DNA of 64,000 bases from Betaproteobacteria bacterium GR16-43 (GTDB lineage: Bacteria; Pseudomonadota; Gammaproteobacteria; Burkholderiales; Usitatibacteraceae): positions 2,604,001-2,668,000 of the forward strand of contig CP019169.1 in the NCBI GenBank assembly GCA_001953215.1. Direction: 5' to 3'. A program made the translations under genes and the position numbers. Positions 18,719 to 59,849 of this stretch are shown here, piece by piece (position 1 is the first letter of the stretch; every line of letters begins with the position of its first letter). Under the pieces are notes generated by a model that ran no database searches, was not told the DNA's origin, and worked only from the letters and a program-made list of their open reading frames with translations.

Positions 18719-18721
18719 CCC

Positions 18722-20500: not shown

Positions 20501-20503
20501 CGA

Positions 20504-20509
20504 TATAAT
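20504..20509 (+). promoter_or_regulatory. Putative internal -10 element before SBP copy 3
   Basis: TATAAT lies just after the stop of SBP copy 2 and 30 nt before the TTG start of copy 3, in a locally A/T-rich patch. It could allow copy 3 and the permease/ATPase genes to be expressed apart from copies 1 and 2. No clear -35 is seen. Confidence 0.4.
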
Positions 20510-20539
20510 TTCCCCTGTTTTCCGCATTCGGATTTCCGC

Positions 20540-24352: not shown

Positions 24353-24356
24353 GAAC

Positions 24357-29094: not shown

Positions 29095-29102
29095 AGGCCC
29101 CC

Positions 29103-31946
<2,844 letters not shown>

Positions 31947-32022
31947 CTGGTCCGTTTTCCCGGGCTTTCCGTCCTTACCGGCATGGGGCTTCGTTTCGAA
32001 GCGCCTTGCCGAGGGAGGAAGC

Positions 32023-33063: not shown

Positions 33064-33067
33064 ACGC

Positions 33068-34459: not shown

Positions 34460-34469
34460 CGGAGGCCGC

Positions 34470-40606: not shown

Positions 40607-40619
40607 AAGGAAGACCGAG

Positions 40620-41858
40620 ATGAAACGTCCCGCAATGCTCCCGATCGCGGCCCTCGTGGTCGCCGTGAATGCCCTGTCCGCGCAACCCGCCGACATCGTG
40701 CTCACCCCGCCACCCGGCGCGGGCGTGAGCGTGACCAACGCCGCCGGAAACGTGACGCAATTCCGCGTCGCCGAAGACGGCAGCGTCACCATCCCCGGGA
40801 CCATCCTGAAGGGCGGGCTCTCGTTCATCCACAACTTCGGATCCGCGAACGCCTTCTTCGGCGCCTCGGCTGGCAACTTCACGATGACCGGCGGGAACAA
40901 CACCGGCCTCGGCGCGGCGACACTCCTCTCCAACACGACGGGCCAACGCAACACTGCCGTGGGGGCGCTGGCCCTCGTGGCCAACGCGACCGGCAACGGG
41001 AACACCGGCCTCGGCTACAACGCGCTCTTCCAGAACACGGGTGGCGCCAACAACACGGCCACCGGCGCAAACGCGCTCAATGCCAACTCGACCGGTGTCA
41101 GCAATGTCGCCACGGGTTCCAACGCCCTCATCAACAACACGAGCGCCTCCGAAAACACGGCCCTCGGATTCAACGCGCTGTACACCGCCACTTCCGGAAG
41201 CTTCAACACCGCGGCCGGAGCCTTTGCGCTGGTGTTTGCGAACGGCAGCAGCAACACGGCCCTGGGAGACAGCGCACTGCAGAATGTCACGAGCGGCGAC
41301 GCCAATATCGGCATTGGGTACAACGCCGGAAGCAATGTCACCACGGGCGACCACAACATCGCCATCGGCGGCTTTGGCGCGGCCGACGAGAGCAACACGA
41401 TCCGCATCGGCACGGCGGCGCACCAAACGCGGATCTTCGTCGCCGCCATCCGCGGCGTGACGACGGGCCTGGCCAATGCGGTCCCGGTGGTGATCGACAA
41501 CAACGGGCAACTCGGCACCGTCAACTCTTCGGAGCGCTTCAAGGACGACATCGCCGACATGGGCGAGGCGAGCGACGCGCTGATGCAGTTGCGGCCCGTC
41601 ACGTTCCACTACAAGCAGGACCAGGACCCCGCCGGCCGCACGCTCCAGTACGGGCTGATCGCGGAAGAGGTGGCGCAGGTCTATCCGGGCTTGATCGCGC
41701 ACTCGGCCGACGGGCAGGTCGAGACGGTGATGACCCAGTTCCTGCCCGCGATGCTGTTGAACGAAGTCCAGAAACAGCGTCGCACCATTGAACGGCTCGA
41801 GAACGCGTTGGCCGCGATGCAACGGCGGCTCGGAATTTCCCAGGAGGAAACGAAATGA
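40620..41858 (+). CDS. Exported S74/ICA-domain repeat protein, paralogue 8
   Basis: 412 aa. AAGGAAGA precedes ATG 40620; the signal peptide MKRPAMLPIAALVVAVNALSAQ is followed by PADIVLTPPPGAG. The shaft has about eight units, for example NTTGQRNTAVGALAL and NNTSASENTALGFNAL. The S74 domain begins SSERFKDDIADMGEASDAL, as in paralogue 7, and the coiled coil ends ...RRLGISQEETK. That last segment encodes AGGAGGAAA, a very strong ribosome site for the next gene, whose ATG overlaps this stop. The S74 array is thus translationally joined to the VCBS-propeller gene at 41855. Confidence 0.86.
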   Translation: MKRPAMLPIAALVVAVNALSAQPADIVLTPPPGAGVSVTNAAGNVTQFRVAEDGSVTIPGTILKGGLSFIHNFGSANAFFGASAGNFTMTGGNNTGLGAATLLSNTTGQRNTAVGALALVANATGNGNTGLGYNALFQNTGGANNTATGANALNANSTGVSNVATGSNALINNTSASENTALGFNALYTATSGSFNTAAGAFALVFANGSSNTALGDSALQNVTSGDANIGIGYNAGSNVTTGDHNIAIGGFGAADESNTIRIGTAAHQTRIFVAAIRGVTTGLANAVPVVIDNNGQLGTVNSSERFKDDIADMGEASDALMQLRPVTFHYKQDQDPAGRTLQYGLIAEEVAQVYPGLIAHSADGQVETVMTQFLPAMLLNEVQKQRRTIERLENALAAMQRRLGISQEETK

Positions 41859-43471
41859 ACGGCAAGGCAATCCTGTACGCGGCGGGCTTCGTGACCGCAC
41901 TCCTCGCGGGCGGCAACACGGCGCGCGCCGCGCAAATTGTCGTTCCCGCCGGGGCGACCTTCACGCTGGGCACGAGTACGTTGAGCCTCGCGTGCGCCGA
42001 CCTCGTCGTGCAGGGCACGATGGCCATCGGTCCGTCGCAGGTGGGCTTCGCCGGCAACGTGACCATCGCCGCGGGCGGGACCCTCGCCGGCGGCACGGGC
42101 ACGCTCACGGTCGGAGGCAACTGGACCAATGTCGGGAATTTCGGGCGCGCCAGCAGCACCGTGCGATTCACCGACGGCTGCACGAGCTCGCCGGTCCAGT
42201 TCGCCGGCAGCACGGCGTTCACGAACCTGCAGCTCTCCAGCGTCACCGGGCGCACCTTCATCCTGCCCGCGGGCAACGCGCTTTCGGTCGAGGGCGACTT
42301 GCTGCTGCTCGGCATCGCCGGCACGCCCATCCAGGTCGTTTCGACGAACCCGCTGGTGCCGACTTCCATCGCGCTCGGCCCCAATGCGACGCTCACCAGC
42401 AACAACGTGTCGTTCGGCCCCAACGTGACGATCACCGCACCCCTGGATGCGCGTCCGGACTTCAACAATGACGGCAAGGCCGATCTCCTGTTCCGCAACA
42501 CCGACGGCTCCTCCGCGATCTGGCAGATGAACGGCCTCGCGATCGCGTCCAGCGCGCAGATCTTCCCCGCGGGCACGGCCTGGCAAGTCGCGCACATGGC
42601 CGACCTGAACGGCGACGGCAAGACCGACCTCGTCTGGCAGAACCCGGATGGCCGCGTGACCGTATATCTGATGGACGGCACCACGGCGGTCACCAAGCAA
42701 CTCATCCTGCCGGCCGGGGGCGGCTGGACCGTGACGCAAGCCGCGGACCTGGACGGCGACGGCAAGGCCGACCTCATCTTCCGGAATACCGACGGCACCA
42801 TCGCCGCGTGGTTGATGGACGGTGCCGTAATGACGGCCGGTTCGACGATCCTCGGTGCCGGTTCGGGATGGAGCGTCACGAAGACCGGCGATTTCGACGG
42901 CGACGGCAAGGCCGACCTCGTGTGGACGCATACCGATGGACGCGTCGCGATCTGGCTGATGGACGGACTCACCGTGAAGTCCACGAACCAGATCCTCAAC
43001 GCCGGCACGGGCTGGAGCGTCACGCACGTCACGGACTTCGACGGCGACGGGAAGTCGGATCTCCTCTGGCAGAACACCGATGGGTCCATCGCGGTGTGGC
43101 TCATGAACGGCAACGTCATGGCGAGCGGCAGCGGATTGCTCGGGGCCGGCACCGGCTGGAGCGTCACCCGCACCGGCGACTTCAACGGCGACGGGAAGGC
43201 AGACCTCTTCTTCCTGCACACGGATGGACGCGCCGCGATCTATCTCATGAACGGCCTCACGCCGACGGCCACGACGCAGATCCTCAACGCGGGCGGCGGC
43301 TGGAGTGCCAAGCGCCTGCAGGACGTGAACGGCGACGGCAAGGCCGACATCGTCTGGGAAAACGTCGACGGATCGGTCGCCATCTGGCTCATGAACGGCA
43401 CGACGATGACGAGCGGCGCCGGCGTCATGGGGCCCGGCACCGGGTGGAGCGTGAGCCCCGTCAGCCCGTAG
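41855..43471 (+). CDS. Exported beta-solenoid protein with C-terminal seven-blade VCBS propeller
   Basis: 538 aa. After a signal peptide (MNGKAILYAAGFVTALLAGGNTARA) comes a Gly/Thr-rich segment to about residue 200 that looks like an autotransporter-type beta-solenoid (TFTLGTSTLSLACADLVVQG, TLTVGGNWTNVGNF). Residues 202-538 are seven tandem 48-residue FG-GAP/VCBS units of the form DxDGDGKADLxxxxTDGRxAIWLMNG, each ending in GxGWxV. Seven such units make a closed beta-propeller in integrins and related proteins; each DxDGDG loop probably binds calcium. It has no enzymatic domain. The first gene of the VCBS series, it is coupled to the S74 array by an ATGA overlap. A structural or adhesive role is inferred. 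Confidence 0.82.
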   Translation: MNGKAILYAAGFVTALLAGGNTARAAQIVVPAGATFTLGTSTLSLACADLVVQGTMAIGPSQVGFAGNVTIAAGGTLAGGTGTLTVGGNWTNVGNFGRASSTVRFTDGCTSSPVQFAGSTAFTNLQLSSVTGRTFILPAGNALSVEGDLLLLGIAGTPIQVVSTNPLVPTSIALGPNATLTSNNVSFGPNVTITAPLDARPDFNNDGKADLLFRNTDGSSAIWQMNGLAIASSAQIFPAGTAWQVAHMADLNGDGKTDLVWQNPDGRVTVYLMDGTTAVTKQLILPAGGGWTVTQAADLDGDGKADLIFRNTDGTIAAWLMDGAVMTAGSTILGAGSGWSVTKTGDFDGDGKADLVWTHTDGRVAIWLMDGLTVKSTNQILNAGTGWSVTHVTDFDGDGKSDLLWQNTDGSIAVWLMNGNVMASGSGLLGAGTGWSVTRTGDFNGDGKADLFFLHTDGRAAIYLMNGLTPTATTQILNAGGGWSAKRLQDVNGDGKADIVWENVDGSVAIWLMNGTTMTSGAGVMGPGTGWSVSPVSP

Positions 43472-43497
43472 CAAGCAAGAGGTAGCAGTGACGCGGA

Positions 43498-43525
43498 GCG
43501 TCGGGCTGTCGTCACAGCCCGACGC
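43498..43525 (+). terminator. Terminator-like hairpin after the first VCBS gene
   Basis: A perfect 12-bp stem GCGTCGGGCTGT/ACAGCCCGACGC with a CGTC loop starts 26 nt after the stop at 43471. No T-run follows, so it is not a canonical intrinsic terminator; it may act as an mRNA 3' stabiliser or pause site. It separates the S74-array operon from the HzsA-like gene. Confidence 0.45.
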
Positions 43526-43621
43526 ATCCGTACGCGCGCCAGTCCCGTATGGATGCCAAGCCCTTGGTGCAAAAGGCGGTGATATTCACAGGCATATTGC
43601 TTGCGTCGTGACCGTCTATCC

Positions 43622-46600
43622 ATGAAGAATAAACGGACCATGACCGCCAAACTCACTTCTGTGCTCCCCATCCTCGATCGTCTCTGTGCCGGTTGCGCGT
43701 TCTTGGCACTCCTTTGCATCAGCGCGGCCAGCAGTGCCGCACCTTCCAACCCGATCCTCTTCGTCACGCAGGTCCCGAGCCTCGGAGACTTCGCGGGCCG
43801 GGCATCGACCTTCGCCAATCACATGACCACGCCGGATCAAGTGGTTCGCGGCGGCGACCTGATGATTCGCTATCCCGACGGCTCGCTGCGCAACCTCACG
43901 CAGGAAGCGGGCTTCGGATTGACGGGCGGCCTGCAGGGCGCGACGTCTATTGCGGTGCGCGAACCCAGCGTGCACTGGAGTGCGAACAAGGCCGTGTTCA
44001 GCATGCTGGTCGGCGCGCCCGCGGTGCAGTACGCGCAGCTCACCTTCTACTGGCAGCTCTACGAAGTGACGGGGCTGGGCCAGGGCCAGACCGCGACGAT
44101 CACGAAAGTGCCGAACCAGCCGGCCGGCTACAACAACGTCTCGCCGTTCTACGGCACGGACGACCGCATCCTGTTCACGTCGGATCGCCCGTTCAACGGG
44201 CAGGCGCACCTCTATCCGCAGGCCGACGAGTACGAGAGCACGCCCACCGTCACCGGCATCTGGAGCCTCAATCCCGCCACCGGAAACCTGCGGCTGCTGA
44301 ACCACACGCCGAGCGGCGCGTTCTCGCCCTCGATCGATGCGTTCGGCCGCGTCATCTTCACGCGCTGGGACCACCTGCAGCGCGACCAGCAGGCCGACCA
44401 GGATGCCGAGACGCCGACCTACGGCTCGTTCAATTACGCGAGCGAGGCGCCGGGTGCCGCGCACCTGGCGCGCTCCGAGATGTTCCCGGAGCCGCGCGCG
44501 GACAGCATGAGCCCGACCAACGGCCCGGTGAACGGCCACCGCTTCAACCAGTTCACGCCCTGGCAGATGAACGAGGACGGCACGGGCGAAGAGACGCTGA
44601 ACCACATCGGTCGCCACGAGCTGTCGTTCGGTTACCTGATCAAGTCGTTCGCGAACGATGCCGCGCTGTCGGACTACAGCATCGACAACCTGCACGCGAA
44701 CAATTTCTCGGTCGGCATGGACACGGGCCTCTTCCAGTTGCGCGAGGATCCCGCTACGCCGGGCACGTTCTTCTCGGTCTACACCCGTGAATTCGCAACA
44801 CTCGCCTCGGGGCAGATCTTCAAGCTGAACGGATCGCCCACCACCAATGCCGATTTGATGGCGCTCACGGCGATCACCGGAACCGCGGGCACCACCGGCG
44901 GGCGCTACCGCAATCCGCTGCCGCTCAGCAACGGCGAGCTGGTCTCGAGCCACACGCTCGCCTCCGGCCTCACGCCCAACCTGATGAACGACTTCCGCCT
45001 GAAGCAGCTCAACAAGAACGTGGGCACCGGGCTCTACGAAGCCGGGGCGACGCTCACCGCCGGCATCGTGAAGTCGGTGACGTGGTGGTCGCCGGACGAA
45101 TTGCGGTCGTTCAACGGCCCGCTGTGGGAGATCGAAGCCGTGGAAGTGGTGGCGCGCACGCGTCCCTCGCGTCCCGCCGCGCCGCTCGAGCCGTCCGAAC
45201 GCGACGTCTTCACGGAAGTGGGCGTCAACGAGACGACGTTCCGCAACTGGCTCACCACCAACGAACTCGCGCTCATCATCACGCGCGACCACACGACGCG
45301 CGATCGCGGCGACAAGCTCCAGCCCTTCAACCTGCGCGTGCCGGGTGGCGTGCAGACGCTGGGCGGCGCGGGCAAGGTCTACGACGTCGCGAATTTCCAG
45401 ATCCTGCAGGGCGATGTGATCCGCGGCTACGACAATCGCGAAGGCCGCCGCGTCATCGCGCAGCCGCTGCATGCGCCGAATGTGCCGAACCTCCCGAATC
45501 CCGGCGGTCCCGCGGGCAGCGTGAAGATCGCGCTCGACGGATCCTCCGCCGCTTTCGTGCCCGCGCGCCGTGCGCTGGCGTGGCAGAGCACCGACGTGAC
45601 GGGCGAGCCGGTCGTGCGCGAGCGCGTGTGGGTCACGTTCCAGCCCGGCGAAGTGCGCGTGTGCGCTTCCTGCCACGGCGCGAACCAGAAGATCCAGTCG
45701 GGCGCGAACTCGCCGGTGAACAAGCCGGAAGCCTTGCGTGCGTTGCTGCAATCGTGGAAAGCCTCGCAGCCCCCGCCGCCCTCCGCGGCCAAGCGCGTTC
45801 CGGACTTCAACGGCAACGGCAGTGCCGACCTCCTGTGGCGCAATGCCGACGGCCGCCAGGCGATCTACCTCATGGATGGCGTCACCGCCACGGCCACGCA
45901 GGAGATCATCGGCGCCGGCACGGGTTGGACGGTCGCACGCGTCGCGGACTTCAACGGCGACGGCAAGAGCGACCTCGTGTGGCAGCACACCGACGGACGC
46001 ATCGCGCTCTACCTCATGAACGGAGCGACGACCACGTCCACGCAGCAGATCCTGAACGCGGGCGGCGGCTGGAGCGTCACGCAGACACCGGACCTCGACG
46101 GCGACGGCAAGGCCGACCTCGTCTTCCAGAACGCCGACGGCACCATCGCCGCGTGGCTGATGGACGGCCTCGCGATGAAGTCGGGCGGGACGCTGATCGG
46201 CGCGGGTTCCGGCTGGAGCGTCATTCGCACCGGCGACTTCGACGGCGATGGCAAGGCCGACCTCGTGTGGCAACACACCGACGGCCGCGTCGCGATCTGG
46301 CTGATGGATGGCCTCACGGTGAAGTCCACGCAGCAGATCCTCAACGCCGGCACGGGCTGGACGGTCACGCACGCCGCAGACTTCAACGGCGACGGCAAGA
46401 GCGACCTCCTGTGGCAGAACGCCGATGGCTCCATCGCGGTGTGGCTGATGAACGGCACCACGATGGCCTCCGGTTCCGGATTGCTCGGCGCCGGCACGGG
46501 CTGGAGCGTCACGCGCACCGGCGACTTCAACGGCGACGGCAAGGCGGATCTCTTCTTCCTGCACACCGATGGCCGTGCCGCGATCTACCTCATGAACGGC

Positions 46601-46816
46601 CTCGTGCCCACGCAGACCACGCAGATCCTCAACGCGGGCGGCGGCTGGAGCGCGAAGCGCGTGCAGGACATGAACGGCGATGGCCTGGCCGACATCGTGT
46701 GGGAGAACGTGGACGGGCGCGTCGCGATCTGGCTCATGAACGGAACCGCGTTCGTGAGCGGCTCGGGCATCCTCGGCACGGGCACCGGCTGGACCGTGAG
46801 CGGCGTGAGTCCGTGA
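43622..46816 (+). CDS. HzsA-like PD40/haem-motif protein with C-terminal seven-blade VCBS propeller
   Basis: 1064 aa. After an N-terminal signal segment (ILDRLCAGCAFLALLCISAASSAA; ATG 43640 is an alternative start), residues about 40-720 resemble the widespread family related to the hydrazine synthase alpha subunit: TDDRILFTSDRPF, HLYPQADEYES, FGRVIFTRWDHLQRDQQAD. A single CASCHG at C681-H685 is a c-type haem attachment motif. Residues 728-1064 are seven VCBS blades nearly in register with those of the other five proteins here. The haem motif implies periplasmic or extracellular haem attachment; the reaction is unknown, and nothing suggests anammox chemistry. The preceding 150-nt gap contains the hairpin and possibly a promoter. 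Confidence 0.8.
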   Translation: MKNKRTMTAKLTSVLPILDRLCAGCAFLALLCISAASSAAPSNPILFVTQVPSLGDFAGRASTFANHMTTPDQVVRGGDLMIRYPDGSLRNLTQEAGFGLTGGLQGATSIAVREPSVHWSANKAVFSMLVGAPAVQYAQLTFYWQLYEVTGLGQGQTATITKVPNQPAGYNNVSPFYGTDDRILFTSDRPFNGQAHLYPQADEYESTPTVTGIWSLNPATGNLRLLNHTPSGAFSPSIDAFGRVIFTRWDHLQRDQQADQDAETPTYGSFNYASEAPGAAHLARSEMFPEPRADSMSPTNGPVNGHRFNQFTPWQMNEDGTGEETLNHIGRHELSFGYLIKSFANDAALSDYSIDNLHANNFSVGMDTGLFQLREDPATPGTFFSVYTREFATLASGQIFKLNGSPTTNADLMALTAITGTAGTTGGRYRNPLPLSNGELVSSHTLASGLTPNLMNDFRLKQLNKNVGTGLYEAGATLTAGIVKSVTWWSPDELRSFNGPLWEIEAVEVVARTRPSRPAAPLEPSERDVFTEVGVNETTFRNWLTTNELALIITRDHTTRDRGDKLQPFNLRVPGGVQTLGGAGKVYDVANFQILQGDVIRGYDNREGRRVIAQPLHAPNVPNLPNPGGPAGSVKIALDGSSAAFVPARRALAWQSTDVTGEPVVRERVWVTFQPGEVRVCASCHGANQKIQSGANSPVNKPEALRALLQSWKASQPPPPSAAKRVPDFNGNGSADLLWRNADGRQAIYLMDGVTATATQEIIGAGTGWTVARVADFNGDGKSDLVWQHTDGRIALYLMNGATTTSTQQILNAGGGWSVTQTPDLDGDGKADLVFQNADGTIAAWLMDGLAMKSGGTLIGAGSGWSVIRTGDFDGDGKADLVWQHTDGRVAIWLMDGLTVKSTQQILNAGTGWTVTHAADFNGDGKSDLLWQNADGSIAVWLMNGTTMASGSGLLGAGTGWSVTRTGDFNGDGKADLFFLHTDGRAAIYLMNGLVPTQTTQILNAGGGWSAKRVQDMNGDGLADIVWENVDGRVAIWLMNGTAFVSGSGILGTGTGWTVSGVSP

Positions 46817-46827
46817 TCGTCTCGCAA

Positions 46828-46865
46828 CCGGGAGGCTGACGCCCTGCGACGGGCGTGTCTCCCGG
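46828..46865 (+). terminator. Terminator-like nested hairpin
   Basis: Outer arms CCGGGAG (46828-46834) and CTCCCGG (46859-46865) flank an inner stem ACGCCC/GGGCGT around TGCGAC, 12 nt after the stop of the HzsA-like gene. There is no T-run. Like the hairpin at 43498 it sits directly after a VCBS gene. Confidence 0.4.
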
Positions 46866-46962
46866 GGGCGACAGTTGCCGCGGCCCCCGGACCGGGACGG
46901 TGAAAAAACCGTTTCGCATCAAGGGTCTGCATCCCGGCATGGCGATTGCTCCCTGGGGCCTC

Positions 46963-49407
46963 ATGCACACACTTCCCTTGCGTCTCGCGATCGGCCTGTT
47001 CACGGCCGCCCTGGCGGCTTCGGCCGGGGCCACGACCTACCAGGTCGGCCCCACCCGCGCCTTCACCCAGATCACGCAGGTCACCGGGATGCTGAACCCC
47101 GGCGACGTGGTCGAGGTCGACGGCAACGCCACCTACAACACCGTGTTCCTCACGCGCAGCGGCAGCGTCGCGCAACCGATCACGATCCGCGGCATGGCCG
47201 CCGGCGCGCAGCGCCCGGTGATCCACTCGAACCTCGCGAACGACGACGGCCTGCGCATGGACGTGGACAACTACGTGGTCGAGGACATGGTCGTCGCCGG
47301 CGCGCGCGTGAAGTGCGTCTACCTGCACGGCAACAACCTCACGCTGCGGCGCGTCCAGGTCCATACCTGCACCAAGCACGGCATCCTCGGCGCCGACACC
47401 GACACCGGCAACATGACGTTGACCGAGGTCGAGGTCTTCAACCAGGGCAACTCCGCCGCGCCGAGCGCGTTCGACCATCCGATCTACATCGCCACCGACC
47501 ACGATCTCTATCCCACGGCCGTGCTGCGCATCGAGCGCAGCTGGGTGCACGACAACTTCTCGGGCAACTCGATCAAGAGCCGCGCGCGCAACGCCAAGTT
47601 CTTCCACAACTGGCTCGAGACCACCAACTCGCAGAACCACACCATCGAGGCGATCGGTCCCGACGGGCAATCGTGCCCGGTGCCCAACGGCAGCAATGCC
47701 GCGATCCTCTGCAACGCCGAGATCGTGGGCAACGTGCTCATCGCGCGCGGCAACAACGCCAACATGATGCGGCTGGGCGGTGACGGGACCGGCGAGTCGT
47801 TCGGCCGCTACCACCTCGTGAACAACACGTTCATCGCGAACGGGACGTTCAACTCGAACAGCTCGGCGATGATCCGCGCGTTCGACGGCATCGACTCGAT
47901 CGAGCTGCACAACAACATCTTCTGGATCCAGCAGGGCGATACCGTCGGCATCCGCATCGTGCGCGACGCCGAGGCGGCCTGGGTGAGCGGCCGCCGCGTC
48001 ACCGGCACGCGCAACCTCGTCACCGGCAGCGCCGCGACGTACGCGAGCGGCATCCCGGCGCAGCAGATCGCGGGCCTCACCAACACCATCTTCGCGACCA
48101 CGGCCTCGGTCTTCGTGAACGTGAGCGCGGCCGCGCTCACCACGCCGGGCCCCCTCGACGTGCGCCTCTCGGCCGCTTCGCCGGCGCGCCTGGCCGGCAA
48201 CGCGGGCAACACCAGCAGCGCGACCTTCGAAGTCCCGAACCCGACCAACCTGCCGGCCTTCCTGCCGCCGCGCATGCGTCCCGACCCGGGCTCGCCGCTC
48301 ACGCAGGTGCCGCGCCCGCTCGCGACCAACGACGACGGCCACGTGGTGCCGAACGCGACCTCGCTGGGCGCCTACGAGTTCACCGCGATGCCGTTCGACT
48401 TCAGCGCCGACGGCAAGAGCGACCTGCTGTGGCAGAACGCCGATGGCCGCGCCGCCATCTGGTTGATGAACGGCCTCGCGGCGACGGCGACGCAAGAGAT
48501 CATCGGCGCCGGCACGGGCTGGAGCGTCGTGCAGGTCGCGGACCTGAACGGCGACGGGCAGAAGGACCTCGTGTGGCAGCACACCGACGGACGCGCCGCG
48601 GTGTACCTGATGAATGGAACGACGCCCATCGCGACGCAGCAGATCCTCAATGCCGGCCCGTGGACCATCACGCACACGCCGGATCTCAACGGCGACGGCA
48701 AGGCGGACCTCGTCTTCCAGAACACGGATGGCACCGTCGCCGTCTGGCTGATGAACGGCACCGCGATGACGGCCGGCGCCAGCATCATCGGCGCGGGCAC
48801 GGGATGGAGCGTCACGCGCACCGGTGACTTCGACGGCGACGGCAAGGACGACCTGCTGTTCCAGAATGCCGACGGCCGCGTTGCGATCTGGCTCATGAAC
48901 GGAGTTTCGGTGAAGAGCACGGGGCAGATCCTCAATGCCGGCACCGGGTGGAGCGTGACCCACACGCCGGACCTGGACGGCGACGGCAAGGCGGACCTCG
49001 TCTGGCACAACACGGACGGCAGCACCGCGGTGTGGCTGATGAACGGCACCGCGATGACCTCGGGCACGGGCCTGCTGGGCGCGGGCACCGGGTGGAGCGT
49101 CACGCGCGCGGCCGACTTCGATGGCGACGGCAAGAGCGACCTCGTGTGGGAACACACCGATGGGCGCATCGCGATCTGGCTCATGAACGGCATCGCGCCT
49201 TCCTCGACCACGCAGATCCTCAACGCCGGGGGCGGCTGGACCGTGCGGCGCACGCCGGACCTGAACGGCGACGGCAAGGCCGACCTCGTCTTCCACAATG
49301 CCGACGGCCGCGTGGCCGCCTGGCTGATGAACGGCGCCGCGATGACCAGCGGCACGCAAATCCTCGGCACCGGCACGGGCTGGGGCGTTTCGGGAGTGAG
49401 CCAATGA
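46963..49407 (+). CDS. Exported right-handed beta-helix protein with C-terminal seven-blade VCBS propeller
   Basis: 814 aa from ATG 46963, chosen because MHTLPLRLAIGLFTAALAASAGA is a compact signal peptide; ATG 46939 and GTG 46900 are in-frame alternatives. The N-terminal domain (about residues 24-400) reads as a pectate-lyase-like parallel beta-helix: TYQVGPTRAFTQIT, ITIRGMAAGAQRPVIHSN, VVEDMVVAGARVKCVYLHGNNLTLRRV in outline, HGILGADTDTGNMTLTEVEVF. Such folds often bind or cleave polysaccharide, but no catalytic residues can be named. Residues 479-814 are seven VCBS blades; blade 2 has one residue deleted near PWTITH. The stop overlaps the GH44 gene ATG, so the two are translationally coupled. 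Confidence 0.8.
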   Translation: MHTLPLRLAIGLFTAALAASAGATTYQVGPTRAFTQITQVTGMLNPGDVVEVDGNATYNTVFLTRSGSVAQPITIRGMAAGAQRPVIHSNLANDDGLRMDVDNYVVEDMVVAGARVKCVYLHGNNLTLRRVQVHTCTKHGILGADTDTGNMTLTEVEVFNQGNSAAPSAFDHPIYIATDHDLYPTAVLRIERSWVHDNFSGNSIKSRARNAKFFHNWLETTNSQNHTIEAIGPDGQSCPVPNGSNAAILCNAEIVGNVLIARGNNANMMRLGGDGTGESFGRYHLVNNTFIANGTFNSNSSAMIRAFDGIDSIELHNNIFWIQQGDTVGIRIVRDAEAAWVSGRRVTGTRNLVTGSAATYASGIPAQQIAGLTNTIFATTASVFVNVSAAALTTPGPLDVRLSAASPARLAGNAGNTSSATFEVPNPTNLPAFLPPRMRPDPGSPLTQVPRPLATNDDGHVVPNATSLGAYEFTAMPFDFSADGKSDLLWQNADGRAAIWLMNGLAATATQEIIGAGTGWSVVQVADLNGDGQKDLVWQHTDGRAAVYLMNGTTPIATQQILNAGPWTITHTPDLNGDGKADLVFQNTDGTVAVWLMNGTAMTAGASIIGAGTGWSVTRTGDFDGDGKDDLLFQNADGRVAIWLMNGVSVKSTGQILNAGTGWSVTHTPDLDGDGKADLVWHNTDGSTAVWLMNGTAMTSGTGLLGAGTGWSVTRAADFDGDGKSDLVWEHTDGRIAIWLMNGIAPSSTTQILNAGGGWTVRRTPDLNGDGKADLVFHNADGRVAAWLMNGAAMTSGTQILGTGTGWGVSGVSQ

Positions 49408-52052: not shown

Positions 52053-52121
52053 CGGTGCGGTAGGCGCTGGGCGGGAGTTCCGGCACAATCGCCCGCATTA
52101 ACATCCCTCAAGGGGTGAGCC

Positions 52122-55100
52122 ATGGCGCACCGCCTCGTCACCGCCTGCCTGCTGGCAGCGGCATGCCTGTTTCCCGTCTCGCCCGCATCGGCCCAGACGA
52201 TCTCGTGGACGAAGTCCTTCACAGGCGTGCCCGGTGGCTGGGCTACCGTGGGGGACTGGCTGCAGGATGGCCCGCGCACGATCGCGACGTTTCCCAATGG
52301 CGACCTCGTGGTCGTGGGCGCCCTCCGCAACGGCAACGGCATGGTCACGGCGCGCTACAGCGCCGCGACGGGCGCGGTGCTTTGGAGCGCGCGGCACACC
52401 GGCTACGTCATCGAAGCCACCACGGCCGAGGCCGCAACGGCCGTCACCGTCGACCCGGACGGCAACGTGGTCGTGGCGGGGCTGGCGGACAGCTATACCT
52501 ACGAGAATCGCGTCGAGATCGTCGCCGTGAAATACGCCGGCGCCACCGGTGCGTTGCTCTGGAGCACGACGCACGGGCGCGCGAACGGAACCTACGAGCG
52601 CCCCTACGCGATCGCGACGAACGCCGCCGGCGACGTCTTCATCACCGGTGCCTCCGGAGCCTCGACCTACGAGAACAACGCGGTCTTCACCATCAAGCTC
52701 TCGGGGCAGACGGGCCAGCGCACCTGGACCCACGTCCTCCCGGGACTCTCGTACGACCACGGAACCGCCCTCGTGGTGGACGTTGCGGGCCATGCCTACG
52801 TCGGCGGCCGAATCGGCGATGCCTTCCAGGTCTTCAAGCTCGACGGGGCGACGGGCATGCAGGCGTGGAGCGCCTCGCTCCCGGGGCAGGGCGAGGCGAG
52901 GACACTCGTGCTGGCGCCGGGCGGTGACGTCCTGGCCGGTGGCGACAGCGCGGGGGTCGGGCGCATCGTGAAGCTCAACCCGGCCACCGGCGCCGTGCAG
53001 TGGTCACAGTCGTATCCGAACGGCGGCTGGTTCGTGCGCATGGCGCCCCGGCTCGATCCCGACGGCAACGTGATCGCGGCAGGGCACGTGGCAAGCTTCG
53101 CGTACGTGGCCAAGTTCTCCGGGGCCACGGGTGCCGTGCTGTGGGGCGTGGCGCTGGACTCGGGAAACGACTTCGCCGTCAGCGCGGTCGACGTCGATGC
53201 GCAGGGTAACGTGGGCGTGACCGGCAGCCAGTCGTACGCGAACTTCCGCGTGACGCGCCTGCGGGGCTCGGACGGCCAGGCGTCGTGGAGCGCGGACAAC
53301 CCTGCGGGTCCGTCCGGCCAGGCGAAGGGTGTCGCGGTGGCGTTCGATGCCGCGGGCAACCTGCTCGCGGCGGGTGGCGTCGCATCGGGTCCGTCGATCT
53401 ACGCGGAAACCTGGCGAATCGTGAAGTACGCGCCCGCGCCCGGGCCGGCCCTCTGGAGCGCAGGCGTGCCGCAGCTGCCGGGCTACGCGATCCTTCGGGG
53501 CAAACACGTGACGGGCGTGCGATCGGGTCGTGTCGCAGTGCTCTCGCAAATGTCCCAGGTCTCGTACTCGCGCGCGGATCGCCTGGACGTCGTGAACGCG
53601 AAGACCGGCACCACGATCTGGAGTCTCACGGAAACGGATATTTCCGGCGCCCTCTCGGAAGGCTATCCGGCCAACCCGCGCGTTGCGATGGATGCGACGG
53701 GCAACGTGGTCGTGACGGGTGGCCCGCATTCGCAACCGCCGGACGCGAAGATGCTCACCCGGAAGTTCCAGGCCGCTTCCGGCGCGGTCGCCTGGACCGC
53801 GACGTCCACCGCGGCCGCCATCGGCAACGCCATCGCGATGGACGCCAACGGCCATGTCGCGGTGCTCGGGAGATCGGAGACCGATTGGGTGGTGGCCAAG
53901 TACGACGGCGCCAGCGGAACGCGCCTCTGGGAGGTCGTGCTCTCCGCGATGGGCCCGTCCAGCGGATACCAGCAGGCCAATGCGATCGCAATGGACTCGG
54001 CGGGCAACGTGGTCGTGACGGGGCGCTACACCAACGCCTCGGCCACGGCGGGAGGGGCGAGGACCTTCAAGCTCGCCGCGGCGAACGGCGCCATCCTCTG
54101 GGACAAGTTGATCCCCGGCGAGCACCTCGCGGTCGCCATCGACGCGCAGGACAACGTGGTCGCCACGGGCGACTTCTTCCAGTACCCGGACACGTTCATG
54201 CAGACCGTGAAGTACGCGCCGGACGGAACCGAACTCTGGACGCGCCTCTACACGGTGGACGGCACCGCGCGCGGCGTGTCGCGGGCGTTGGCGATCAATC
54301 CCCAGGGCGAAATCGTCATCGGCGGGTACACGGCGCCCATCAACCCTCCGGGGTCGACCAGTGCCCGCATCGTGAAGTATTCGGCGGCGGGCGTCGTGCT
54401 GTGGACTGCCGCGAGCGGCGCGCCCGGCAGTTACGCCGCGGCGATCGATGTCGCGTTCGATGGCCTGGGCAATGTGGTCGCCGGCACCTACGAAGCGGAG
54501 CCGGGCGCCCGTGGCAAGTCGCGCGCGATCAAGCTCGCGGGCGCGACGGGCGCCTCGCTCTGGGTCCGGGGCGTCCAGCCTCCGCCGATCGAAGGGTTCC
54601 TCTATGACCTCACGGTGGTGCGCGTGGATTCCGACAACGCGGTCCTGGTGGCGACCGATTCGTGGGTCCCGGACGGGGTCTTCAATGTCACGCTCTCGCG
54701 CGTGGTCGATGCCGACACGCGGCCGCCGGTCGCGGTGGACTTCGACGGCAGCGGCAAGGCCGATCTCCTGTTCGAGAACACCGACGGCCGCGCGGCCATC
54801 TGGTTGATGAACGGCATCACGCCGACCGCCACGCAGGAAATCATCGGGGCCGGCACGGGCTGGAGCGTCACCCAGGTCGCCGACTTCAACGCCGACGGCA
54901 AGACCGATCTCGTGTGGAAGCACACGGATGGCCGCATGGCGATCTACCTGATGAATGGGACCACGCCCGCGACCACCACGCAGCTGTTGAATGCGGGAAG
55001 CGGCTGGAGCGTGATCCAGACGCCCGACGTCGATGGCGACGGCAAGGCCGACCTCCTGTTCCAGAACACGGACGGCAGCGCGGCAATCTGGTTGATGAAC

Positions 55101-55751
55101 GGTGCCGCGATGAGTTCGGGCGCCAGCATCATCGGTCCGGGCTCGGGATGGAGCGTGACGAAGGTCGCGGACTTCGACGGCGACGGCAAGAGCGATCTGC
55201 TGTGGACGCACACCGATGGCCGCGTGGCGATCTGGTTGATGAACGGCCTCGCCGTGAAGTCGACGAACCAGATCCTCAATGCAGCCAGTGGCTGGAGTGT
55301 CGCGCACACGATCGACTTGAACGGCGACGGCAAGGCCGACCTCGTGTGGCAGCACACCGATGGCAGCGTCGCGTTGTGGCTGATGAATGGCGCGGTCATG
55401 GCGTCCGGCTCCGGGCTCCTCGGCGCGGGAACCGGATGGAGCGTCCAGCGCGTGGCCGATTTCGACGGCGACGGAAAGGGCGATCTCCTCTTCGGTCACA
55501 CGGACGGGCGCGCGGCGATCTACCTCATGAACGGGCTCATGCCGACCATGACCACGCAGATCCTCAACGCGGGTGGCGGCTGGACCGCGAAGCGGACGCT
55601 GGACCTCAATGGCGACGGCAAGGCGGACATCGTCTTCCAGAACGCGGACGGCCGCACGGCGGTGTGGCTGATGAACGGCACGGCGATGACGTCGAGCGCG
55701 CAACTGCTCGGAACGGGAACGGGATATGGCGTCTCCGCGGTCAGCCAGTAG
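52122..55751 (+). CDS. Exported SBBP/PQQ-like propeller protein with C-terminal seven-blade VCBS propeller
   Basis: 1209 aa. The signal peptide MAHRLVTACLLAAACLFPVSPASA precedes about 840 residues of repeats of the kind GNVVVAGLADS...VKYAGATGALLWS, the SBBP beta-propeller/PQQ-like pattern with repeated GATGA(V/L)LW turns, probably two propellers in series. No PQQ-dehydrogenase catalytic residues are evident. Residues 873-1209 are seven VCBS blades, closest to those of the GH44 protein: blades 4-7 are almost identical in both. AAGGGGTGA lies just before the ATG. The role is unknown; by architecture it is an exported binding or scaffold protein. Confidence 0.8.
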   Translation: MAHRLVTACLLAAACLFPVSPASAQTISWTKSFTGVPGGWATVGDWLQDGPRTIATFPNGDLVVVGALRNGNGMVTARYSAATGAVLWSARHTGYVIEATTAEAATAVTVDPDGNVVVAGLADSYTYENRVEIVAVKYAGATGALLWSTTHGRANGTYERPYAIATNAAGDVFITGASGASTYENNAVFTIKLSGQTGQRTWTHVLPGLSYDHGTALVVDVAGHAYVGGRIGDAFQVFKLDGATGMQAWSASLPGQGEARTLVLAPGGDVLAGGDSAGVGRIVKLNPATGAVQWSQSYPNGGWFVRMAPRLDPDGNVIAAGHVASFAYVAKFSGATGAVLWGVALDSGNDFAVSAVDVDAQGNVGVTGSQSYANFRVTRLRGSDGQASWSADNPAGPSGQAKGVAVAFDAAGNLLAAGGVASGPSIYAETWRIVKYAPAPGPALWSAGVPQLPGYAILRGKHVTGVRSGRVAVLSQMSQVSYSRADRLDVVNAKTGTTIWSLTETDISGALSEGYPANPRVAMDATGNVVVTGGPHSQPPDAKMLTRKFQAASGAVAWTATSTAAAIGNAIAMDANGHVAVLGRSETDWVVAKYDGASGTRLWEVVLSAMGPSSGYQQANAIAMDSAGNVVVTGRYTNASATAGGARTFKLAAANGAILWDKLIPGEHLAVAIDAQDNVVATGDFFQYPDTFMQTVKYAPDGTELWTRLYTVDGTARGVSRALAINPQGEIVIGGYTAPINPPGSTSARIVKYSAAGVVLWTAASGAPGSYAAAIDVAFDGLGNVVAGTYEAEPGARGKSRAIKLAGATGASLWVRGVQPPPIEGFLYDLTVVRVDSDNAVLVATDSWVPDGVFNVTLSRVVDADTRPPVAVDFDGSGKADLLFENTDGRAAIWLMNGITPTATQEIIGAGTGWSVTQVADFNADGKTDLVWKHTDGRMAIYLMNGTTPATTTQLLNAGSGWSVIQTPDVDGDGKADLLFQNTDGSAAIWLMNGAAMSSGASIIGPGSGWSVTKVADFDGDGKSDLLWTHTDGRVAIWLMNGLAVKSTNQILNAASGWSVAHTIDLNGDGKADLVWQHTDGSVALWLMNGAVMASGSGLLGAGTGWSVQRVADFDGDGKGDLLFGHTDGRAAIYLMNGLMPTMTTQILNAGGGWTAKRTLDLNGDGKADIVFQNADGRTAVWLMNGTAMTSSAQLLGTGTGYGVSAVSQ

Positions 55752-55802
55752 GGGCACACCGCGGAGAGCCATACCCATTAAATATCCCACCGCGAGGTTC
55801 CA

Positions 55803-55808
55803 TATATT
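55803..55808 (+). promoter_or_regulatory. Putative -10 element before the SGNH/VCBS gene
   Basis: TATATT lies in an A/T-rich patch (CCATATATTTTACGG) 48 nt before the ATG. This is the only clearly A/T-rich upstream region among the VCBS genes. No convincing -35 is visible. Confidence 0.35.
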
Positions 55809-55856
55809 TTACGGACCTTCGGCCGAGGCCTAGAGTCGGGATTCTCGGAGGGGTTC

Positions 55857-58800
55857 ATGCCCAAAAAAATACAATCCGCGGCGCTCGCATGCGCCGCGCT
55901 CCTGCTTGCGGGTGGCACGCTCGCGGCCCCCTTCACGCCCGGCAACGTCATCGTCTACCGCATCGGCAGCGGCGGCGCGGCCACGCTCACGGCCAACGGG
56001 AACCCCGTCTTCCTCGACGAGTACACGGCCTCGGGCACGCTCGTGCAATCGGTGCCGCTGCCTTCGGCGGCGGCGGGCGCCAGCAAAGCGCTGATCGCAA
56101 GCGGCACGGCGACCACGGATGGACACCTTGCGCGTTCCGCCGACGGCACGTGCATCGCCGTGCCGGGCTATGGCCGTGACCTCGGGACGGGCGCCGGCAA
56201 CGTGGTCTCGGGAACGATCGTGGGCGGGACCCCGATCCCGCGCGTCGTCGCACGCGTGACTAGCGCGGGCACGGTGGACGTGACGACCGCGTTGACGGAC
56301 TCCGCCGTGGCGGACAACTTCCGCAGCGCGACGTCCGTCGATTGCAGCGTGTTCTGGGTCGCCGGCGCGGCCGGCGGCGCCCGCTACGCGACGCGGGGAG
56401 CCACGACCTCGACGCAACTCACGGTGGTCGATGGTTCGAACCCGAGCCCGCGCGTGGCCGGCATTTTCGCGGGCCAGCTCTACATCTCCGCGCCGAATCC
56501 GCAGCGCGGCGTGGCACCCGTCGGCACCGGACTTCCCACCACGGGCCCCGCGGCCTACGTGCGCCTGCCCGGCCTCACGAACACCAACAGCACGAGCCCC
56601 TACGGCTTCTTCTTCGCGGATCTCGACGGCACTCCGGGCGTGGATACGCTCTACATCGCGGACGACCTGGGCGCGGCCCTCACGAAATTCTCGCTGGTCG
56701 GCGGCACCTGGGTCTCGAACGGCATCGTCGGCGTCGACGCGGACGACTATCGCTTCCTCACGGGCGTGGTGAGCGGCACCACGGTGACGCTCTACGCGGT
56801 GCGCGGCGGCAACCAGCTCGTCACGCTCACGGATGCGTCGGGCTACAACGGCGCGTTCGCCGGCACGCCGACCCTCCTTGCGACCGCGGCCGCGAACACG
56901 ACGTTTCGCGGCGTGACGCTCTCCCCGGTGCTGTCGGCCACGCCGCTCGCCGGGCCCGGCGGCTCCGTCTCGCCCGCGACCGCGCAGGCCGTCTCGCCCG
57001 GCGGCATGGCTGAATTCACGATCGTCGCCGACCCGAGCCACGATCGCGTCGTGACGGGCACGTGCGGCGGCGGTTTCGTGGGCAGTACCAACACGTATCG
57101 CACGAATGCCATCAATGCGAGCTGCACCGTGGACGCGTCCTTCCCGTCGATCGTGTTCCGCACGGTGACGTTCAGCTCGACGACGCATGGCACCGTCTCC
57201 GCCGACGGACCGGTGCAGGTCCAGCAGGGCACGACGTTCTCCTTCTCCGCCACGCCCGAGTCCGGCTACAAGGCCACGGTGGGCGGAAGCTGCGGAGTGA
57301 CGCCCACCGGCGGCAACGGCTACGTGACGCAGCCGATCAGTGCCGATTGCACGGTGGCCGTTTCGTTCGACCCGTTGCCGACTTACGCGGTGACTCCGTC
57401 CACGAACAACGCGCACGGCACGCTGACTCCCACGGGCGCGACCCTCGTCCTGCAGGGGCAGGCGCTTTCGTTCACGGTGACGCCCGAAGCGGGCTACAAC
57501 GCCGCGGTACGCGGCACGTGCGGCGGCGCGTGGACCAATGCGAACACCTACGTGACCGCGCCCATCCTGGGACCGTGCACGGTGCAGGCCACGTTCGCGA
57601 CCAGGCTCGTCCTCTTCGTGGGCAACAGCTACACGTTCGGCCGCGTCGATCCGGTGATGAGCTACAACGCCGCGAACGTGGCGGACCTCACGCACGCGAT
57701 GTGGCTCACGAACCCCACGGGCTCCAACAGCTTCGAGCCGCACCCGTGGGGCGGCATCCCGGGCGCCTTCAAGAAGATGATCGACCAGGCGGGCCTCGAC
57801 TGGGACGTGTCGATCTCCGCGCGCAATGCCGCATCGCTGCGCGGGCATTTCCTCAATTCGAACCCGGCGGGCTGGGACCTGCGCGGCAACGTCGCCTCGC
57901 AGCCGTTCGACACGGTGGTCCTGCAGGAGCTCAGCGATGGCGCGCTCCCCGACGGCCGTGGCGCCAACGCGAACCTCGCGAACTTCAACACCTACGCCGA
58001 CAAGCTCGAGAAATGGGTGCACTTCGGCGCGGCGGATCCGGAAACCGGCTCGCCGCAGCCGAACGTGAACGCCCGAACGACCGCGAACGTGTACCTGTAC
58101 CAGACGTGGGCGCGTCCCGACATGATCGCGCCGAACGGCACGGCGGGCCCGTTCTACACCGCCGCAGAGGGCCTCGAGTTGATGACGCAGCACCTGCACG
58201 ACGCGTACTTCGGCCGCGCGTCCAGCAACCTCGACTTCGAGGCGGTGAGCCCTGTCGGCGATGCGTTCCTGCGCGCGGTGCAGGAAGGCTTCGCGATGCG
58301 CGACCCGTACGTGCCCGAGCCCGGCAAGATCAACCTCTGGTTCACGGAAGACAACTTCCATCCCAGCAAGCATGGCTCGTATCTCAGCGCGCTCGTGCAC
58401 TTCGCGACGTTGACGGGTCTCGATCCCACGACGCTCGGCTCCGGCGAACTCGCGGCGGCGGACCTTGGCATCACGCCGGTCGAAGCGACGGAGCTGCAGC
58501 TTGCCGCGCGGCTCGCGGTGCTGCCGAAAGCGCCGTCGATCGGGGTAGCGACGCCGGGTCCGGCCGCTGCGATCGTCTCGTTTACGCCACCGGACAATGC
58601 CGGCCGGCTGCCGATCCTCGACTACACCGTCACTTGCTTCCAGTCCCAGGAGACGCACAGCGCCACGGGCACGACTTCACCGATCGCCGTGGTCGGGCTC
58701 AATCGTTTCCTGGGCGCCCAATGTTCGGTGGCCGCTCGCAACAGCGTCGGCTCGGGGACGGCTTCCAGCCTCTCCGATTCGATCTTCGCGGGAGTGGGTG

Positions 58801-59849
58801 CGCACGCGGCCATCGGCAGTTTCAACCTCGATGGGCGCGACGACATCGTGTGGCGCCATGCCGACGGGCGCGTGGCCATTTGGCTGATGGACGGCTTGCG
58901 CCTGGTGGCCGGCGCGGGAATCTTTCCGGCGGGGACGGGCTGGCGGGTCGTGCAAGTGACGAACTTCGATGGGGATCCCGGGCGAGCCGATCTGCTTTGG
59001 CAGCACACGGATGGCCGCATTGCGATCTATGCAATGGATGGCCTCACGGCGCTGGCCAAGGTCAACGTCGCCGGGCCGGGCACGCCCACGGTGACGCATG
59101 CGGTTCACCTCAAGTCGTCCTTCTTCACGGGCGACCTGTTGCTCCGTGCCAATGATGGGTCCCTGTTCGCCTGGGTGATCAATCCCAACACGATGATGTA
59201 CGACACCAAGATGCAGCTGGATCTGGGTGGCGAGCCGGGTTGGCGCGTCGCCGGCACGGGGAAATTCAGCAATCTCCCGATGAGTTCCATCCTGCTGGCG
59301 CATGACGACGGGCGGGTCATGAAGTGGGACATGGACGAGGCCTTTCCGCTGGCGAAGACGAACCTCCTTCCGGCGGGAACGGGATGGAGCGTTCATCGGG
59401 TGGCCGATCTCGACGGCGACCTCAACTCCGACATCCTCTGGCGGCACGCCGATGGCAGCGTTGCCGCGTGGCGTATGAACGGCAATGAGATCGTCGAAGG
59501 CGCGACCCTCCTCGGACCGGGCACCGGCTGGAGCATCACGCACACCGCCGATTTCAACGGCGACGGCAAGGACGACCTTCTCTGGCGACACGCGGATGGT
59601 CGCGTCGCGATCTGGCTCATGAACGGCATCACCCCGATCGCGACCACGGAAATCCTCGGTCCCGGCACGGGCTGGACCGTGCGAAACCTGCTCGACTTCA
59701 ACGGCGATGGAAAACGCGACATCCTTTGGGTCCATACGGATGGGAGCGTGGCCATCTGGTTGATGAACGGTACGTCCGTGATGGACGGTGCGACGATCCT
59801 CGGCCCCGGGACGGGCTGGGATCCGGTGGGGGTCTCGCCGTACTTCTAG
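55857..59849 (+). CDS. Exported multidomain SGNH-hydrolase-like protein with degenerate seven-blade VCBS propeller
   Basis: 1330 aa. A signal peptide (MPKKIQSAALACAALLLAGGTLAA) and a strong GGAGGGG ribosome site mark the start. Residues about 25-350 read as a beta-propeller-like part; about 360-580 carry three bacterial Ig-like/InlB-B-type repeats (GTVSADGPVQVQQGTTFSFSATPESGY in outline) each with a GxCG Cys. Residues about 583-870 look like an SGNH/GDSL hydrolase: FVGNSYTFG with Ser591, and DNFHPSKHGS with Asp832 and His835, giving a plausible triad. An Fn3-like domain follows (about 895-985). Residues 988-1330 form seven VCBS-like units, of which units 2-4 have lost the DxDGDG loop. Likely an extracellular esterase; the substrate is unknown. 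Confidence 0.78.
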   Translation: MPKKIQSAALACAALLLAGGTLAAPFTPGNVIVYRIGSGGAATLTANGNPVFLDEYTASGTLVQSVPLPSAAAGASKALIASGTATTDGHLARSADGTCIAVPGYGRDLGTGAGNVVSGTIVGGTPIPRVVARVTSAGTVDVTTALTDSAVADNFRSATSVDCSVFWVAGAAGGARYATRGATTSTQLTVVDGSNPSPRVAGIFAGQLYISAPNPQRGVAPVGTGLPTTGPAAYVRLPGLTNTNSTSPYGFFFADLDGTPGVDTLYIADDLGAALTKFSLVGGTWVSNGIVGVDADDYRFLTGVVSGTTVTLYAVRGGNQLVTLTDASGYNGAFAGTPTLLATAAANTTFRGVTLSPVLSATPLAGPGGSVSPATAQAVSPGGMAEFTIVADPSHDRVVTGTCGGGFVGSTNTYRTNAINASCTVDASFPSIVFRTVTFSSTTHGTVSADGPVQVQQGTTFSFSATPESGYKATVGGSCGVTPTGGNGYVTQPISADCTVAVSFDPLPTYAVTPSTNNAHGTLTPTGATLVLQGQALSFTVTPEAGYNAAVRGTCGGAWTNANTYVTAPILGPCTVQATFATRLVLFVGNSYTFGRVDPVMSYNAANVADLTHAMWLTNPTGSNSFEPHPWGGIPGAFKKMIDQAGLDWDVSISARNAASLRGHFLNSNPAGWDLRGNVASQPFDTVVLQELSDGALPDGRGANANLANFNTYADKLEKWVHFGAADPETGSPQPNVNARTTANVYLYQTWARPDMIAPNGTAGPFYTAAEGLELMTQHLHDAYFGRASSNLDFEAVSPVGDAFLRAVQEGFAMRDPYVPEPGKINLWFTEDNFHPSKHGSYLSALVHFATLTGLDPTTLGSGELAAADLGITPVEATELQLAARLAVLPKAPSIGVATPGPAAAIVSFTPPDNAGRLPILDYTVTCFQSQETHSATGTTSPIAVVGLNRFLGAQCSVAARNSVGSGTASSLSDSIFAGVGAHAAIGSFNLDGRDDIVWRHADGRVAIWLMDGLRLVAGAGIFPAGTGWRVVQVTNFDGDPGRADLLWQHTDGRIAIYAMDGLTALAKVNVAGPGTPTVTHAVHLKSSFFTGDLLLRANDGSLFAWVINPNTMMYDTKMQLDLGGEPGWRVAGTGKFSNLPMSSILLAHDDGRVMKWDMDEAFPLAKTNLLPAGTGWSVHRVADLDGDLNSDILWRHADGSVAAWRMNGNEIVEGATLLGPGTGWSITHTADFNGDGKDDLLWRHADGRVAIWLMNGITPIATTEILGPGTGWTVRNLLDFNGDGKRDILWVHTDGSVAIWLMNGTSVMDGATILGPGTGWDPVGVSPYF

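Follow-up and report, generated by a model that had tools for sequence, protein, structure and literature searches.

A seven-unit FG-GAP module towards the C-termini of fifty putatively exported proteins of a betaproteobacterium and its possible role as a docking tag

The window genes and the module across the genome

The 64,000-nucleotide window analysed here (positions 2604001-2668000 of the single 4.81-Mb contig of Betaproteobacteria bacterium GR16-43, genome G000 below) carries a series of genes whose products differ in their N-terminal parts, referred to as cargo, and share a C-terminal module of seven FG-GAP/VCBS units (Table 1). U02-U51 denote the module proteins of this genome, G001 and G002 are complete congeners and G010 belongs to another genus. 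A preliminary description had named six such genes on the + strand between positions 41855 and 59849; their translations were searched with a blade model derived from G000. The scan returned seven terminal FG-GAP units in each of them, with blade 1 beginning at residues 202, 728, 487, 547, 873 and 988; the earlier value of 479 for the third gene is obtained from a later ATG at 46963. The 48-residue spacing reported for the units holds in general, with one spacing of 47 in the third gene and spacings of 49 and 51 in the sixth, U07, whose blade 3 is degenerate (score 11 with the blade model) and whose module is the most divergent seven-unit module. In U02, the Pfam profile FG-GAP_3 matches seven stretches (E 3.5e-64). 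The six N-terminal parts are all different, as first described, with zero BLASTP links at E<=1e-5 between any pair. The names proposed for them fared less evenly: Pfam recovers HZS_alpha (6.9e-9) and GH44 (1.6e-71), the parts called solenoid, beta-helix and SGNH have no Pfam match at E<=0.01, and the one match behind the label SBBP is to an NCBIfam model and lies far under its cut-off. A seventh gene, U08, continues the series, its seven-blade module lying beyond the window end at 2671130-2672143 of the genome.

Table 1. Location and content of the features discussed; positions are those of the window unless a genome and locus are named
Feature	Position	Strand	Content
ECF sigma factor (PF07638)	28534..29094	+	upstream of the cluster
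Ser/Thr protein kinase with TPR repeats	28707..31946	+	true start probably after 29094
U02	41855..43471	+	signal peptide, N-terminal part of ~200 residues without Pfam match; seven-blade module 42458-43468
U03	43622..46816	+	HzsA-like (HZS_alpha) cargo; seven-blade module 45803-46813
U04	46939..49407	+	N-terminal part without Pfam match (first described as beta-helix); seven-blade module 48397-49404
U05	49404..52052	+	GH44 cargo (E 1.6e-71); seven-blade module 51042-52049
U06	52122..55751	+	SBBP/PQQ-like propeller cargo; seven-blade module 54738-55748, modelled by AlphaFold2
U07	55857..59849	+	large cargo, partly common to U22 and a protein of genome G015; module 58818-59846
U08	59999..64000	+	reprolysin-type metalloprotease, Calx-beta, Kelch and fn3 cargo; seventh gene in the series
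ISTRGQV tandem tag	G001, L224:3778-4554		no Pfam family
SGWG tandem repeat	G002, L225:3451-4206		end of the U31 homologue; no Pfam match

The seven units may close into one propeller, as proposed earlier. In an AlphaFold2 model of the U06 module, calculated from an alignment of the window plus named relatives, 28 predicted strands fall into seven groups of four (pLDDT 94.2, pTM 0.90), which fits a single seven-blade propeller. Blade sequence, calcium loop and this predicted strand arrangement are all shared with FG-GAP/VCBS propellers of the integrin type. Foldseek searches against the PDB retrieved generic propellers, with TM values mostly about 0.4-0.6 in the best rows and some lower, and the best solved relative by sequence search is a secreted esterase (9oee, E 4.4e-17). 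An alignment-free model of full-length U02 was poor (pLDDT 59) and was discarded.

The module also occurs elsewhere in the genome. One whole module used as query against G000 gave 53 matches, which gene calling resolved into 50 proteins with diverse N-terminal domains (U02-U51); U01, at 1.593 Mb with internal, irregular VCBS-like matches, is excluded from this count. Cluster A, of 70 kb, contains fifteen module genes, those of the window among them; cluster B, of 105 kb, contains 30, and five module genes stand alone. By the blade model, every one of the 50 proteins has seven blades in series, some of them weak in U07, U38, U40 and U41; U12 and U13 each have one stray weak blade match near the N-terminus. 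The module is about 337 residues long and reaches the last residues of the protein, 48 of the 50 stopping 1-8 residues past the last matched blade position. U11 has just 43 residues ahead of blade 1, little beyond a signal peptide and the module. The calcium-loop motif Dx[DN]x[DN]GxxD is present in 294 of 350 blades. Over the whole genome, the FG-GAP_3 profile gave 150 scored matches from 370 first-look candidates. In a sample of 377 genomes of the class, first-look candidates, which are not scored matches, number 365 in G000; the highest number in the 178 genomes listed is 107, the other 199 being without a match. With 50 such proteins in G000, and a candidate count far above the class sample, the multiplicity of module proteins is not due to chance. 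Of 399 genomes sampled from the order, all at least 90% complete and with five candidates scored per genome, only G000 and G010 have matches at E<=1e-30.

Module and cargo are decoupled

A Pfam run on all 50 N-terminal parts revealed a wide range of cargo: HZS_alpha, GH44, reprolysin-type metalloproteases (U08, U36), subtilase (U23), Exo_endo_phos (U22), GSDH (U35), RCC1 (U14, U15, U49), NHL (U16, U48), DUF5122 and PQQ propellers, Sortilin/BNR (U24) and Calx-beta, fn3 and Ig domains. Cytochrome c is matched in U19, while U20 stays under the Pfam cut-off and under that of an NCBIfam cytochrome family; several of the 50 parts have no Pfam match at all. U36 matches the NCBIfam model of Mep72 with E 2.7e-25, under the model cut-off. 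By BLASTP at E<=1e-5, 113 of the 1225 protein pairs have similar cargo. A hydropathy rule finds signal-peptide-like N-termini in 48/50 proteins at the chosen starts, and the two that fail it, U12 and U47, look signal-peptide-like by eye. Because the starts of 24 of the 50 module genes had been shifted by eye towards a signal peptide, the fair comparison is the one made at longest-ORF starts, where 32/50 module proteins and 16/77 non-module calls are signal-peptide-like.

Among the 50 proteins, the modules are 42-94% identical in amino-acid sequence (median 61%). Their edges were examined in DNA with 228 matches of >600 nt and >75% identity, four of which are overlapping neighbour genes and not copies. 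The similarity begins, in the median case, exactly at the first base of blade 1 (5-95% range -16 to +285 nt) and ends 8-12 nt ahead of the end of the stop codon. Closely similar modules stand behind unrelated cargo: 88% of nucleotides are identical between U14 (RCC1) and U23 (subtilase), 85% between U19 (cytochrome) and U48 (NHL), and 91% between U02 and U48, which lie 1.34 Mb apart and the latter of which carries NHL repeats. For only 15 of the 50 proteins does the nearest module neighbour carry homologous cargo, and module identity is 0.66 in 34 strongly cargo-homologous pairs as against 0.62 in 1116 pairs without detected cargo similarity.

In 11 picked close module pairs, dN/dS is 0.11-0.22 in ten and 0.40 in one. 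At four-fold sites coding for the same residue, third bases agree in 54% of cases, compared with 42% from base composition; most copies are therefore considered old, and a recent burst of copying, which had been entertained, is weakened as an explanation, though some pairs are close (91% at the nucleotide level). Identical runs of silent sites occur in 24/1225 pairs, where about 8 are expected, a hint of gene conversion. An expansion blade by blade was rejected, all 50 proteins having seven blades and blade k being nearest to blade k of other proteins (0.50-0.69). Conservation between proteins, tabulated for all but U07, is higher in the C-terminal blades (0.50 for blade 1, 0.69 for blade 6 and 0.65 for blade 7). 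Within U02-U51, blades 3, 5 and 7 resemble one another and blade 4 resembles blade 6, a sequence pattern that suggests a trace of an old two-blade unit.

Homologous cargo with other C-terminal modules in relatives

At E<=1e-20, the module is matched in 10 of 28 genomes of the family and is absent from the complete congeners G001 and G002. G010 has a set of its own: of 38 ORFs listed, 32 carry six blades in series and one carries seven, the remaining five being partial or out of frame. A tree built from 113 modules, which include 14 of 80 named loci and leave out genome G015, places all 50 modules of G000 in one clade (support 0.90), and clades private to one genome are also seen for G003 (4/4), G021 (6/6), G022 (6/6) and G010 (32/33). 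In G015, eight ORFs, one of them a short reading frame, are at least 98% identical over the last 184 residues. One of these, G15_5, has some 1500 N-terminal residues without a match of >80 residues to the other seven; its last 430 residues recur in the six other long ORFs, at 98.8-99.8% identity in five and at 78% in G15_6.

Homologues of G000 cargo in relatives carry different ends. The cargo of U31, which belongs to no Pfam family, recurs in G010 with 73% identity over 644 residues, while the modules are only 42% identical and have seven blades in one case and six in the other. In G001 (69% over 677 residues) the same cargo precedes two ISTRGQV repeats; in G002 (53% over 645 residues) it precedes two SGWG repeats. 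The protease cargo of U36 is joined to FG-GAP modules of the respective genome in G010 and G021, to a dockerin-like end in G016 and G027 and to an ISTRGQV repeat in G001; proteins matching part of U36 in G015, G018 and G019 have a divergent terminal FG-GAP module, the homologue in G002 has neither tag, and in G025 the contig stops short of the end.

The ISTRGQV tag gave 24 matches in G001 on 18 ORFs, ending 0-19 residues ahead of the stop; the remaining 27 family genomes are without a match at E<=1e-20. In NCBIfam, it has one match above cut-off, to the DVUA0089 family. Cargo of the type tagged in G000 is present in 16 of the 18 ORFs at E<=1e-15 over 100 residues and in 14 at E<=1e-30 over 250 residues; none of the 59 untagged calls from the same stretches has it. 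The stretches were picked by tag and not by cargo, and six of the untagged calls, probably false ones, overlap a tagged ORF. The more specific, and more telling, cargo matches are those of U31, U35, U33, U36 and U10. No solved relative better than E 0.4 was found for the ISTRGQV and SGWG tags, and the seven-blade module, the ISTRGQV, the SGWG and the dockerin-like tags have no mutual BLASTP similarity better than E 0.15.

Dockerin_1 matches occur in genomes without a module match: 23 in G016, 15 in G017, 11 in G026 and three each in G025 and G027. In a survey drawing on part of the dockerin contigs, 22 of 25 dockerin-like ORFs end 0-19 residues past the tag, and 17 have a cargo match of G000 type, some of them via common fn3 or Ig domains, while 8/25 have none. 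The FG-GAP module clades, like the ISTRGQV tag, appear to be confined to a single genome each.

A possible docking tag and its genomic setting

The logic of a common C-terminal module with interchangeable cargo, proposed in the preliminary description, is well supported by the 50 copies on unrelated cargo and by the different tags on homologous cargo. The parallel drawn there with dockerins is strengthened by the relatives, in which homologous cargo is followed by dockerin-like, six-blade or other-repeat modules. Like type I dockerins, the element of G000 is a C-terminal calcium-loop module on many cargoes; the repeat differs, however, and Dockerin_1 (PF00404) has zero matches in G000 at E<=0.001. 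Most C-terminal sorting tags known so far are short motifs that depend on a single processing enzyme. IPTL-CTERM, MYXO-CTERM and 'choice-of-anchor' proteins join the same kinds of extracellular cargo to different C-terminal anchors; those are short signals, whereas the tags in G000 and its relatives are domains of 165-340 residues, some of which look private to a genome. Among the best-ranked open-licence PMC papers, none was seen to describe an FG-GAP tag used at C-termini throughout a genome.

In the PEP-CTERM/EpsH system, as outlined in a passage of PMC1569441, one C-terminal element is found on many diverse signal-peptide proteins per genome, is tied to exopolysaccharide genes and consists of a short motif, a transmembrane helix and a basic cluster. 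G000 resembles it in that 50 diverse proteins, most of them with signal-peptide-like N-termini, share a single element, terminal in 48 of them, and differs in that the element is a repeat domain of ~337 residues extending to the last residues. When the last 14 residues of all 50 proteins were read, 48 ended in the last propeller unit (e.g., ...GTGWSVSGVSP) with no helix or basic cluster, PEP-CTERM not having been searched genome-wide. Repetitive VCBS propellers may, according to a section of PMC9218822, vary in blade number within a lineage, whereas the G000 module is constant at seven.

Since the proteins bear their own Sec-type signal peptides, inner-membrane export is probably not the task of the module; docking or retention would fit it better than sorting. 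The reading preferred here, to which we give an even chance, is that the seven-blade propeller is the private C-terminal docking tag of G000, with the cell's own exopolysaccharide or capsule as its most likely partner. Each protein would be exported via its own N-terminal signal peptide, which is seen in the sequence, and then cross the outer membrane; the shared propeller would hold the exported proteins in one common extracellular place, most likely the exopolysaccharide or capsule, to which the calcium-loop propeller may bind in a lectin-like manner. Copies could be swapped between cargoes via gene conversion or cassette fusion, and it is proposed that the need to fit a single partner keeps all the tags of a genome alike and exchangeable. 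A change of partner in another lineage might then cause much of the same cargo repertoire to be refitted with a different tag, be it a six-blade propeller, a dockerin-like end or another tandem repeat.

The exopolysaccharide is favoured as partner mainly because tag clusters adjoin polysaccharide genes in two genomes. Cluster B has glycosyltransferase genes and one for a Poly_export protein (genome 2999353-3000561) on its left side, and PhyH and APS-kinase genes followed by a glycosyltransferase and an ABC-2 permease on its right; the tag cluster of G001 has AlgX, MBOAT and glycosyltransferase genes on its flanks. It is also favoured by the sugar binding of VCBS propellers, a class that is described as including lectins in the part of PMC9218822 that concerns it, by Bap1 of Vibrio cholerae, which is secreted, contains FG-GAP domains and works within an exopolysaccharide matrix (excerpt of PMC3161981), and by Mep72, a biofilm metzincin with C-terminal carbohydrate-binding domains whose autolysis is slowed by alginate (excerpt of PMC4334185), to which the above match is under cut-off. 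Bap1 and RbmC differ from the G000 system in being two dedicated matrix proteins, compared with a tag on dozens of cargoes.

Several observations weigh against this picture of genome-wide docking tags for a glycan. Dockerins bind proteins, not glycans, and are thus a poor fit to a shared glycan partner. No polysaccharide gene is found among the annotated neighbours of cluster A, the right flank of which was not annotated. U24 and U25 (L049, L036) share an extra cysteine-containing end of 164-165 residues past the propeller, 3/25 dockerin-like ORFs carry 483-803 residues beyond the tag, the propeller is internal at the loci L072, L075, L080, L082 and L088 of relatives, and among the named distant relatives 29/73 closed ORFs end within 10 residues of the propeller; a terminal position is common for the FG-GAP fold and no rule. 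Cargo matches in G001 often concern widespread exported families (RCC1, NHL, DUF5122), so that cargo homology need not mean orthology. Finally, the tag classes are neither exclusive nor complete. G018 and G024 have one Dockerin_1 match each besides the module match, G001 still has five single FG-GAP_3 matches, and IPTL-CTERM matches are spread over G000 (1), G003 (4), G010 (5) and G001 (10). Five of the 28 genomes (G006, G007, G012, G019, G020) match none of the four tags (module, ISTRGQV, dockerin, IPTL-CTERM) at the thresholds used, and one of these, G019, has 59 FG-GAP_3 matches.

The propeller might instead dock to a protein receptor, binding one cohesin-like or outer-membrane protein and no glycan. 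The dockerin-like ends on homologous cargo in relatives point this way, dockerins being protein binders, and one shared protein partner would explain the alikeness of the copies; on the other hand, no receptor candidate was recognised among the annotated neighbours, no cohesin search having been made, and we regard this alternative as unlikely. Rather more doubtful is an outer-membrane secretion signal, that is, a folded propeller recognised by a type II or other system on otherwise unrelated periplasmic proteins. The Sec-type signal peptides of the cargo agree with this, as does Mep72, a related protease described in an excerpt of PMC4334185 as a type II substrate, but the tag varies between congeners on homologous cargo, which a conserved machine would not readily allow. 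A substrate-binding accessory domain akin to a carbohydrate-binding module (CBM), without a common location, would suit the lectins among VCBS propellers (PMC9218822, same section) and those cargoes that are enzymatic (GH44, proteases, GSDH); we consider it improbable, as a large part of the cargo belongs to families that do not act on glycans (RCC1, NHL, cytochromes, Ig) and U11 has next to no cargo. About equally improbable is that the module is mainly a 1-kb cassette of little function, spread by duplication and gene conversion. The sharp median DNA edges, the excess of silent-site runs and the near-identical ends on differing cargo in G015 would suit this; against it stand dN/dS of 0.11-0.40 in the picked pairs, the seven blades in 50/50 proteins and the relatives in which homologous cargo bears a different C-terminal tag.

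Extended from G000 to its family, the docking reading would mean that much of one exported repertoire is refitted lineage by lineage with C-terminal modules unrelated in sequence, each kept alike within its genome by the need to match a fast-changing partner such as the lineage's own exopolysaccharide; the modules in this turnover would be the seven-blade propeller, the six-blade propeller, the dockerin-like end, the ISTRGQV repeat and the SGWG repeat. We hold this extension tentatively, at a little short of an even chance. If a propeller serving dozens of cargoes is indeed replaced in sister species, the cargo set and the attachment system evolve separably, and the same cargo fitted with the tags of two congeners allows a direct comparison of binding to each species' surface. 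It also suggests a route to docking systems free of family models, namely a search for the last 300 residues common to many unrelated exported proteins of a genome.

The genes flanking and punctuating cluster A are kept in the same order in G002. The four G000 intervals that hold the 15 module genes and S74 genes measure about 46.0, 5.6, 21.2 and 11.2 kb, and their counterparts in G002, according to gene calls from a simple greedy caller, about 2.4, 1.4, 0.6 and 0.5 kb; genes have therefore been gained in G000 or lost in G002 interval by interval. Directly ahead of the module genes, eight tandem ORFs for Peptidase_S74 (endosialidase chaperone) occupy window positions 31771-41858, where the G002 counterpart measures ~2.4 kb. 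The ECF sigma factor gene upstream of the cluster (Table 1) is a possible regulator of it. A second pair of ECF sigma factor and Ser/Thr kinase-TPR genes lies within cluster A (L031:4242-7742), and a similar pair, its sigma factor recognised by similarity only, adjoins the ISTRGQV-tagged genes of G001 (L255), where the tags differ. A phage Tail Collar protein (Pfam) is encoded between U09 and U10 (L031:13940-14461), and three Tail Collar look-alikes, recognised by eye, lie beside U50 (L044, genome 4027789-4029359). Elsewhere in the window, three tandem genes for family 5 solute-binding proteins (16892-22351) adjoin an oligopeptide-type ABC transporter (23297-26054).

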